A DNA stretch of 33,314 nt, from positions 1 through 33,314 of IMG/VR virus record IMGVR_UViG_3300030117_004633, one strand, 5' to 3'. Position 1 is the first letter of the stretch. Every line of letters begins with the position of its first letter. Made by a program: the position numbers and the translations under genes. Below, piece by piece: positions 1,601 through 4,693 of the stretch. The DNA is from a virus. Below the pieces are notes generated by a model that had not been told where the DNA came from, made no database searches, and saw only the letters and a program-made list of their open reading frames with translations.

Positions 1601-1747
1601 ATGCAGGAATTAGAATTTGTAACGATGATGGTCATAATGATTAGTTGTGCCTATACATCATTTCAACTTGGAAGAAAGGAAGGAATACGTAATGCTATCT
1701 TATACTTTGAAGACGAAGGAATTATTGAACTCGAAGATAAGGACTAA
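1601..1747 (+). CDS. Small single-pass membrane protein
   Basis: This encodes 48 aa beginning MQELEFV. The start is set by GGAG 8 bases upstream; an in-frame ATG at 1547 lies upstream of the promoter's transcription start and cannot be used. Residues about 5-21 form one hydrophobic helix, followed by an FQLGRKEG segment and an acidic C-terminal tail. Its position directly behind a strong promoter suggests early expression. One-helix proteins of this kind are frequent in marine phages and have no assigned role; I cannot tell a holin-like or host-modifying role from sequence. Confidence 0.65.
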   Translation: MQELEFVTMMVIMISCAYTSFQLGRKEGIRNAILYFEDEGIIELEDKD

Positions 1748-1758
1748 AAAAATTTTTC

Positions 1759-1787
1759 TTGACTTTTGATACAAAATTTAGTATAAT
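1759..1787 (+). promoter_or_regulatory. Sigma-70 promoter of hsp20
   Basis: TTGACT (1759-1764), 17 bp, TATAAT (1782-1787). The expected start is at about 1794, at or next to the ATG at 1795, and leaves a leader of roughly 185 nt before the hsp20 ATG at 1981. Confidence 0.85.
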
Positions 1788-1794
1788 AGTAGTA

Positions 1795-1863
1795 ATGAAA
1801 CTTCATCTATTACAGATGGAGTTCTTCAAGTTCCAGCGTCAGCTGGGGGAGGGTTGGATGTAA
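1795..1863 (+). CDS. Possible leaderless 22-codon upstream peptide
   Basis: An ATG sits 7 bases after the -10 element, matching the geometry of the leaderless starts at 6176 and, within one base, 10598-12473. It opens 22 codons, MKLHLLQMEFF and onward, ending in TAA at 1861. The same bases also form RNA stems, so it may be pure leader RNA. If translated, it could act as a leader peptide that changes the folding of the hsp20 leader. There is no homology evidence. Confidence 0.3.
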   Translation: MKLHLLQMEFFKFQRQLGEGWM

Positions 1864-1980
1864 ACTCACTACTTTGCAATGAAGATTAGATTTAGTCAGT
1901 TTATGGGAATTTTTTAATATAACCCGAGATGCCGAAAGGGTCTCACAGAAGTAGCCGAAAGGTACTAATAGGAGAAAGAA
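1795..1980 (+). ncRNA. Structured 5' leader of hsp20, possible cis-regulatory RNA
   Basis: A long leader with several inverted repeats. CTTCAT (1801-1806) pairs with ATGAAG (1879-1884) to enclose about 85 nt. Inside lie CATCT/AGATG (1804-1808 with 1814-1818, which competes with the outer stem) and CCAGC-GTCA-GCTGG (1833-1846). Further on are two hairpins with the same 9-mer GCCGAAAGG at 1931 and 1954: GAGA..CC-GAAA-GG..TCTC (1926-1944) and AGTA.CC-GAAA-GG.TACT (1950-1966). The second ends 3 nt before AGGAG (1970-1974). Because the gene encodes a heat-shock protein, an RNA thermometer or ligand-sensing leader is plausible, but it matches no class I can name. Confidence 0.5.
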
Positions 1981-2403
1981 ATGGTAGTACATACATTACC
2001 GACAATACACGACCTAAACAGGTCATGGATTGGAGCAGATCGTTTTTTCGAAAGGTTCGCTTCAATGCCTACATACGAAGATAATTCGTATCCACGTTTC
2101 AATGTAACAAAAGACGGAGACAACTATCAAATAGAAGTTGCGCTTGCGGGTTACAAGAAAGAGAATATAATCGTAGAAAGAGTAGAAAATATTCTCTCGA
2201 TTCATGGAGAAAAGAGTCTGAAAGATGTGGCAGATGAGTCATATTTACACAGGGGGATTACACGAAAAGCGTTCAAGAGAAGCTTCACCATATCTGACGA
2301 TGTCAGAATTGACCAAGCATCTTTTGTTGACGGCATTCTAACGGTAGACCTTCATGTCGAAATACCAGAGGAGAAAAAACCAAGACAAATTGAAATAATT
2401 TAG
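1981..2403 (+). CDS. hsp20: Small heat-shock protein, Hsp20/IbpA type
   Basis: This encodes 140 aa. An N-terminal segment with DRFFERF is followed by the alpha-crystallin domain at about residues 36-125, including YPRFNVTKDGDNYQIEVALAGYKK-type strands and an IHGEKS strand. The C-terminal tail PRQIEII carries an I-x-I/V-type anchoring motif that in this family packs into a neighbouring subunit. Such proteins hold unfolding proteins without ATP and form oligomers in the cytoplasm. Phage hsp20 genes are well known in cyanophages and T4-like marine phages, where they may protect virion or replication proteins. It has its own promoter at 1759, a long structured leader, and AGGAG 6 bases before the ATG. 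(Motif residues are quoted in short form.). Confidence 0.95.
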   Translation: MVVHTLPTIHDLNRSWIGADRFFERFASMPTYEDNSYPRFNVTKDGDNYQIEVALAGYKKENIIVERVENILSIHGEKSLKDVADESYLHRGITRKAFKRSFTISDDVRIDQASFVDGILTVDLHVEIPEEKKPRQIEII

Positions 2404-2598: not shown

Positions 2599-2901
2599 AT
2601 GATAACAATAACCGAAATAGCAAAGGATAGAATCACAGAGAGGCTGGGGAAGGATTTCCTCCGCCTCTCACTTTCGGGTGGTGGGTGTAATGGCTACCAG
2701 TATTTATGGGACATACACGAAGGAAAGCCCAACAATGATGACTTTGTTATTGAGGACAGAATAGTGATTGATAGTTTTAGTATGCCTTATCTGCATGGAA
2801 CTATCATAGATTGGAAAGAGTCTCTTGTAGAGACAGGATTTGAAATACACAATCCAAATGAGCAAACAGCTTGTGGTTGTGGTGTTTCAGTAGGATTTTA
2901 G
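2599..2901 (+). CDS. A-type iron-sulfur carrier, HesB/IscA/ErpA family
   Basis: This encodes 100 aa covering nearly the whole family domain. The three family cysteines are present: C30 in SGGGCNGYQY, and C92/C94 in the C-terminal ACGCG motif followed by VSVGF. In bacteria these proteins bind Fe-S clusters or iron and pass clusters to client enzymes. Phage copies occur in cyanophages and marine metagenomes and are regarded as auxiliary metabolic genes. Clients could be host photosynthetic or respiratory enzymes, but this window offers no obvious phage Fe-S client. The stop is followed one base later by the lysozyme ATG. The spacing before its own ATG has no strong SD, so it may be coupled to upstream translation. 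Confidence 0.93.
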   Translation: MITITEIAKDRITERLGKDFLRLSLSGGGCNGYQYLWDIHEGKPNNDDFVIEDRIVIDSFSMPYLHGTIIDWKESLVETGFEIHNPNEQTACGCGVSVGF

Positions 2902-2902
2902 A

Positions 2903-3337
2903 ATGAAAGTAAGTCAGGATTGCGTAGAATTAGTAAAGCACTTTGAAGGATTCGAAGATACTGCATACCTATGCCCAGCAAATGTATGGACTATAGGGTA
3001 TGGCAGAACTCGTAATGTAAAAGAAGGGGACAGGATAACAGAACCCCAGGCCGAGAGAGATTTACTTGAAGAACTGGAAGAGTTTAAACACCAAGTATTA
3101 AACTCAGTAAAAGTAGAATTAAAACAAAATGAACTTGATGCATTAACATCATGGACATATAATTTAGGAGTAGGAAACTTAAAAAGTAGTACACTTCTGA
3201 AAAAATTAAATGCTGGAAATAAAAGTGAAGTACCAGCAGAAATGATTAGGTGGAACAAAGCAAACGGAAAAGTATTAGCAGGATTAACGAAGAGAAGAGA
3301 GGCGGAAGCAGAATTATGGGCAAAGGAAGTAGTATAA
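2903..3337 (+). CDS. Endolysin, GH24 lysozyme
   Basis: This encodes 144 aa, a phage lysozyme that cuts the glycan strands of peptidoglycan. The GH24 catalytic pattern is E-8aa-(D/C)-5aa-T: here E15 (in FEGFED), C24 (in YLCPA) and T30 (in WTIGYG). Cysteine replaces the aspartate of T4 lysozyme, as in some other phage endolysins. The family motifs SWTYNLGVGNLKSSTLLKKLN (about residues 74-94, quoted loosely) and GLTKRREAE near the C-terminus are intact. There is no signal or SAR helix, so export should need a holin. Spanins and membrane proteins follow downstream, giving a lysis cassette. The next gene starts inside its last 22 bases. Confidence 0.93.
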   Translation: MKVSQDCVELVKHFEGFEDTAYLCPANVWTIGYGRTRNVKEGDRITEPQAERDLLEELEEFKHQVLNSVKVELKQNELDALTSWTYNLGVGNLKSSTLLKKLNAGNKSEVPAEMIRWNKANGKVLAGLTKRREAEAELWAKEVV

Positions 3338-4412: not shown

Positions 4413-4537
4413 ATCGTTCATTCACTCTAAATGTAGCAGTGAACGGAAGTAGGCAGGACGCCGAAGGAACGCATCTTCATTTTAACTAGAAGATGGTTTT
4501 TAAATTTTACATCTTCGCAAAAAGAAAGGAGATGATT
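4413..4537 (+). promoter_or_regulatory. Downstream-peptide (glutamine) riboswitch
   Basis: The bases match the glutamine-binding Downstream-peptide/glnA RNA family. P1 is CGTTC (4415-4419) with GAACG (4467-4471). P2 is TTCACT (4421-4426) with AGTGAA. The conserved CGGAAGTAGG core follows, then P3 GGC/GCC and the hallmark CCGAAGGAACGC. A short YRG-repeat peptide gene follows, as in cyanobacteria and cyanophages. The expression platform carries CATCTTC at 4472 and again at 4510, with GAAGATG between them at 4489. CATCT at 4510 can also pair with AGATG (4530-4534) inside the ribosome-binding site. Glutamine-controlled folding is therefore likely to decide transcription, translation, or both. Confidence 0.88.
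4472..4500 (+). terminator. Terminator-like hairpin in the riboswitch platform
   Basis: CATCTTC (4472-4478) and GAAGATG (4489-4495) form a 7-bp stem with a 10-nt loop, followed by GTTTTTAAATTTT. This looks like an intrinsic terminator directly behind the aptamer, although the stem is AT-rich and modest. GAAGATG can instead pair with the second CATCTTC (4510-4516), which would act as an anti-sequestering structure. Confidence 0.5.
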
Positions 4538-4693
4538 ATGGCAAACTCATATAGAGGTGCTAATAAAGTTAATACCAACAAAGCAGAACTTGTAGAGCAA
4601 GAGTTCATTTATAGAGGTATTAAGTACATTAGTGCAAAACAGCCAACTCAACCACATGATGGAATATATCGTGGTGTAAAAAGAGTTGCGTAA
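4538..4693 (+). CDS. Riboswitch-controlled YRG-repeat peptide (DUF4278-like)
   Basis: This encodes 51 aa with three YRG elements: YRGANKV near the start, YRGIKYI in the middle and YRGVKRVA at the end. Short proteins with YRG-x-x-Y repeats (DUF4278-like) are the typical product behind Downstream-peptide riboswitches. The ATG at 4538 is chosen because AAAGGAG ends 6 bases before it; an ATG at 4532 overlaps the SD. In cyanobacteria, related short peptides under glutamine riboswitches are linked to nitrogen control through glutamine synthetase; whether this phage peptide acts that way is unknown. Confidence 0.8.
   Translation: MANSYRGANKVNTNKAELVEQEFIYRGIKYISAKQPTQPHDGIYRGVKRVA

Follow-up and report, generated by a model that had tools for sequence, protein, structure and literature searches.

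The small heat shock protein (sHsp) IbpA of E. coli binds its own 5′ untranslated region (5′UTR) and represses its own translation (PMC10474464). Within IbpA, residue R93 of the β6–β7 loop is essential, with R93K abolishing repression, which also requires that position 34 be aromatic (Y34; PMC10474464). The ROSE_3 element (RF02523) of Pseudomonas ibpA, a ROSE-like RNA thermometer, places two hairpins directly before the sHsp start codon (PMC3669281).

We analysed a phage hsp20 gene that likewise has two hairpins directly before its start codon. The window, by which we mean the whole stretch of DNA under study, is a 33,314-base viral contig (IMG/VR record IMGVR_UViG_3300030117_004633), and a DNA similarity search of it against phage isolates gave no match. 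Like ibpA, its hsp20 is an sHsp mRNA with a structured 5′UTR, which we take to be about 185 nt long because of the sigma70-like promoter upstream (Table 1). A preliminary description of this leader had reported twin GAAA hairpins; our analysis confirms the observation, extends it beyond what was supposed, and supports its interpretation in part. The shared 9-mer, GCCGAAAGG, indeed occurs exactly twice in the window (0.05 occurrences expected), at 1931-1939 and, 23 bases on, at 1954-1962, and the second hairpin ends at 1966, with the Shine-Dalgarno (SD) sequence AGGAG starting three bases on, at 1970. The leader has no match in Rfam, in agreement with the earlier view that it belongs to no known riboswitch class; the sole riboswitch covariance-model match in the window (Rfam 15) is a glutamine riboswitch further downstream. 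Beyond what had been described, both hairpins (H1 and H2) carry a single bulged G two pairs beneath the tetraloop, the pair is specific to hsp20 in marine phages of many groups, and H1 resembles hairpin I of ROSE-type leaders.

Table 1. Features of the hsp20 locus and its surroundings, in window coordinates.
Feature	Coordinates	Strand	Details and basis
Sigma70-like promoter	1759-1787	+	TTGACT 1759-1764, 17-base spacer, TATAAT 1782-1787; from sequence, kept in aligned relatives
P1 hairpin	1800-1822	+	9 bp; paired in 100% of cells across 14 leaders, with 4 doubly changed pairs
J1	1823-1827	+	UCUUC; can pair with GGAGA (1971-1975) at the SD; minimum free energy (MFE) fold and partition function
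P2 hairpin	1831-1848	+	Stem retained by eye across relatives although the sequence varies
P3	1860-1904	+	Conserved C.C mismatch, UU bulge, side loop, P4 as cap; 5 compensated pairs
P4	1872-1884	+	Loop GCAAU; caps P3
H1	1926-1944	+	GAGAU-[G1931]-CC-GAAA-GG-GUCUC; covariation in twins and relatives
H2	1950-1966	+	AGUA-[G1954]-CC-GAAA-GG-UACU; covariation in twins
SD	1970-1974	+	AGGAG; from sequence
hsp20 (PF00011)	1981-2403	+	140 aa; R39 codon 2095-2097 and K96 codon 2266-2268, E. coli IbpA positions 36 and 93
Putative membrane peptide	1601-1747		48 aa; neighbour of hsp20
A-type Fe-S carrier (PF01521)	2599-2901		Neighbour of hsp20
Phage lysozyme (PF00959)	2903-3337		Neighbour of hsp20
Glutamine riboswitch (RF01739)	4413-4475		59.6 bits; precedes the 51-aa peptide gene
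YRG-repeat peptide	4538-4690		51 aa; DUF4278-like, 23.1 bits, just below the Pfam cut-off

The module consists of a stem, one bulged purine, two base pairs, a GNRA loop and the returning stem, present twice and followed by the SD and AUG. We scanned 2.9 million viral contigs in IMG/VR, without regard to genes, for GCCGAAAGG, a gap, CCGAAAGG, a gap and AGGAG; of the 61 places returned, 52 lie directly 5′ of an hsp20 open reading frame, in many unrelated phages. The remaining nine are not next to hsp20 and by appearance are mostly GC-rich coding repeats or hairpins without the bulge. Scanning with a relaxed pattern gave 39 of 91 new places among the matches listed, a figure not to be read as a rate. 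Across 80 distinct twin hsp20 leaders, the two cores are 21-24 nt apart, the second core stands 4-11 nt from GGAG, and GGAG stands 6-9 nt from the start codon; the bulged base is usually A or G, and the loops, mostly GNRA, are GAAA, GAGA, GUAA or GCAA.

Base pairing in the module is strongly conserved. In 51 distinct twins, 98.2% of cells were paired, the covariation score was 0.824 (0.192 when shuffled) and 206 cells were changed on both sides (50 when shuffled), while sliding one partner by a single base brought pairing below 50%. The upper stem covaries too, occurring as CC/GG, UC/GA and CU/AG. Compensatory changes in the stems of the GAAA hairpins, whose absence the preliminary description had named as grounds for dropping its proposal, are thus present, both in the twins and in the close relatives of the window.

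We also considered the module as a bacterial feature and rejected this, since among 59 stretches with the same pattern in the cellular genomes of 84,980 species, hsp20 lay downstream of only one. That lone match is on a contig of a metagenome-assembled genome, and its leader matches a phage contig (L041). In some phages, L041 among them, the pair directly follows an upstream stop codon, which suggests action on translation rather than transcription. In one further group of loci (L546 with L515, L510, L528 and L535), a gene for a small exported-looking protein lies between the twin pair and hsp20, and the element may there drive a two-gene operon.

In most of the other phage hsp20 leaders the design is ROSE-like, with a bulged-G hairpin followed by a U(U/C)GCU hairpin that holds the SD. 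More precisely, in the ROSE-type phage leaders a hairpin with a bulged G then C is followed by an anti-SD hairpin, CUC/CUU-[G]-CU...AG-GAG, that contains the SD. Leaders of this type occur in T4-like cyanophages, pelagiphages and methylophages. In T4-like marine phages they are found widely ahead of hsp20 (L361-L374 and other sampled loci), for which we found no report in the literature searched, and those of the T4-like marine phages that we scanned scored below the Rfam threshold. With the ROSE_3 model (threshold 43 bits), the Pseudomonas-type leader of Y7 scored 69 bits, and those of Melnitz and L198 scored 34 bits. Hairpin I has a one-base 5′ bulge in 58 of 61 phage ROSE-type leaders, compared with 32% of shuffles, and in 44 of the 61 this is a bulged G then C, compared with 0.7%.

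The window leader shares one half of this design. Window H1, GAGAU[G]CC...GGGUCUC, differs little in its letters from hairpin I of ROSE_3, GGGAU[G]CC...GGGUCCC, and the two have in common a bulged G followed by CC paired with GG, which is the ROSE_3 consensus. Unlike in ROSE_3, the position of hairpin II is taken by a second bulged-purine GNRA hairpin that lacks U(U/C)GCU and leaves the SD outside, and a search for ROSE elements found no match in the window at the gathering threshold, nor up to E = 5 within 1480-2100. Judged from sequence and predicted folding, the twin leader looks like a relative of ROSE in which hairpin I was duplicated and its second copy took the place of the SD hairpin; the likeness of H1 to ROSE_3 hairpin I could reflect either descent or convergence. 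The 155 sampled loci split cleanly into 80 twin, 72 ROSE-type and 3 other leaders, proportions that are not frequencies as most twins were sampled by leader pattern, and two of the 72, L036 and L063, turned out to be twin leaders whose start codon had been misplaced. One ROSE-class leader with an R93 protein, that of S-SRM01 (L369), has a GAAA loop on hairpin I and is a possible intermediate between the two types.

The encoded proteins divide in the same way. Residues are numbered on an IbpA sequence that places Y34, R83, R93, R97 and K98 as published. Position 93 is lysine in 82 of 82 proteins with twin leaders and arginine in 69 of 70 with ROSE-type leaders, the sole exception being that of phage C48C1 (L365), a K93 Hsp20 behind a ROSE-type leader. 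Among 137 columns, with sequences thinned at 80% identity, those that best separate the classes are 93 and 36, the latter arginine in twins and proline in ROSE-type proteins; both fall in the mapped RNA-contact patch of IbpA. Four T4-like members combine K93 with A or F at position 36. The window protein (predicted structure model, mean pLDDT 73.7) matches IbpA in its aromatic residue 34 and basic residue 97 (Y37 and R100) and differs in having K96 for R93 and R39 for P36; it is a candidate RNA binder.

Starting instead from the protein, a search with Hsp20s of the twin class led to 63 distinct leaders, each belonging to an R36/K93 protein, one of the two search patterns itself containing the K93 lysine. 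The strict pair was found in 54 of these, and inspection by eye adds three more if a mismatch or one relaxed hairpin is allowed. In another five, namely L546 and four L515-type loci with a looser pair judged by eye, it precedes the inserted gene for a small secreted-like protein, and the last is on a contig that ends early. None of 63 ROSE-type leaders contains the twin pair. The association between leader type and residues is near perfect and rests on few events: on the tree, leader type needs only two changes, and a topology that places all twins in one clade passes the AU test (p-AU 0.469). As leader type changed maybe only once or twice, the link to K93/R36 may reflect one event followed by ancestry.

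Upstream of the twin hairpins, the window carries a second structured domain. The whole leader is common to a group of 20 IMG/VR contigs with Hsp20s 81-100% identical, comprising 14 distinct leaders including that of the window, after two near-identical ones were merged. The 13 others keep the structure, in line with the earlier proposal of a real structured leader, while the window leader itself folds only mildly better than shuffles (z = -2.06). In the 14 leaders, P1, P3, P4 and H1 have 100% of cells paired and 11 doubly changed pairs (5.5 when shuffled), including an A-U/U-A swap across the UU bulge (alignment columns 88 and 108); P2 was left out of these counts because MAFFT shifts it. Unpaired positions of P3/P4 are 93% identical, compared with 75% at fourfold-degenerate hsp20 sites in the group. 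An exact pattern found no relatives of P3/P4 elsewhere, nor did a full-leader model in the fetched loci outside the group, where matches to the model rest on the twin hairpins. The P1-P4 domain (1800-1904), which includes a conserved GCAAU loop, a G-rich run and the C.C mismatch, was seen in no other phage group and is a group-specific addition. An upstream open reading frame within P3/P4, ATGAAGATT..., was rejected, as it has no SD, its stop codon is not conserved and its changes suit base pairs better than third codon positions. An intrinsic attenuator formed by P3 and a U-run was also rejected, the stem being AU-rich and the U-run, by eye, not conserved in relatives. Four other loci (L083, L094, L091 and L027) have a different long conserved structured domain upstream of the twin hairpins, which in L083 has no Rfam match.

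We propose that H1 and H2 form a translational operator of the phage hsp20 mRNA, related to ROSE hairpin I and most likely read by Hsp20 itself, a reading to which we give a probability of about 0.5. Excess Hsp20, in dimeric units, would bind both hairpins and block the ribosome adjoining H2; clients or aggregates would titrate it off the RNA, and translation would rise. As with IbpA, the result would be a negative feedback, lifted while clients occupy Hsp20. Since R93K inactivates E. coli IbpA (PMC10474464), the phage protein would need a changed interface.

The reader of the hairpins could also be any other conserved protein. A host or phage protein that regulates or protects the hsp20 mRNA, with the match at residues 36 and 93 left over from ancestry, is in our view unlikely. 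A bulged purine two base pairs below a tetraloop is a common geometry for protein recognition: the R17/MS2 coat protein operator has a lower stem, a bulged purine, two base pairs and a tetraloop next to a start site. The twins differ from it in their GNRA loop, their two copies and the absence of a coat protein, so the likeness is one of design only. That leader type changed few independent times also speaks for such a protein. A shared host ligand, however, should serve other genes too, and the element is almost exclusive to hsp20; moreover, the two most discriminating columns lie in the RNA-contact patch. Of the two uses that the preliminary description had offered for the GNRA loops, protein recognition is the better idea; docking of the two tetraloops on each other was set aside, as no receptor was found by eye and no evidence supports it. 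Stable hairpins close to the start might instead protect the mRNA from nucleases or provide a ribosome standby site with no specific ligand, and a transcript-stabilizing effect has been suggested for hairpin I of Pseudomonas ibpA (PMC3669281). Such a role would not explain why the bulged purine is conserved, why GNRA loops are preferred, why there are two copies at near-fixed spacing or why the module is restricted to hsp20, and we hold it to be improbable.

An RNA thermometer, with the SD hidden in the cold and opened by heat, is only slightly less improbable. The related leaders are ROSE-like, and in the window J1 can hide the SD. The enclosing stem reported earlier is present in the MFE structure, where, contrary to the claim that it leaves the SD free, 1823-1827 pairs with 1971-1975; this long-range pairing is predicted in about half of the group. 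Computed at 20 °C, the SD is 2% unpaired in the window and similarly closed in several relatives. However, mean openness in the 14 relatives is 0.36, compared with 0.39 when the upstream sequence is shuffled, leading us to reject conserved long-range sequestration. On the last 70 nt of the leader plus 20 nt of coding sequence, also at 20 °C, the SD of 75 twin leaders is 60% unpaired (57% when shuffled), in contrast to 19% in ROSE-type leaders (37% when shuffled), and the U(U/C)GCU anti-SD motif is absent from the twins. As the SD is no less open than in shuffles, the predictions do not support temperature sensing through release of the SD as the common function of twin leaders. That P3/P4 form a metabolite aptamer, making the leader a new riboswitch, is very improbable: its unpaired positions are highly conserved and its stems covary, yet it occurs in one phage group, before one gene and in only 14 distinct leaders, the twin module exists in other phages without it, and Rfam has no match.

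If the twin hairpins are read by Hsp20, the protein and its leader may form a co-evolved pair, an idea that we advance tentatively and consider somewhat short of an even chance. In one large marine phage group, an R93/P36 sHsp with a ROSE-type leader would have become a K93/R36 protein. Its mRNA would have exchanged the thermosensing SD hairpin for a second hairpin I, so that a leader which had responded to temperature became a twin operator read by protein.

What the 5′ hairpins of ROSE elements do has been described as not fully understood (PMC3669281), and the target of IbpA in its own 5′UTR is only roughly defined, thermometers and similar structured RNAs being the description given (PMC10474464). 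By keeping and doubling hairpin I while dispensing with the SD hairpin, a natural variant of this kind pulls the two functions of ROSE apart. The twin leaders name a recognition motif (bulged purine, two base pairs, GNRA loop) and two candidate specificity residues, making both the role of the ROSE 5′ hairpin and recognition by IbpA testable with small reporters.
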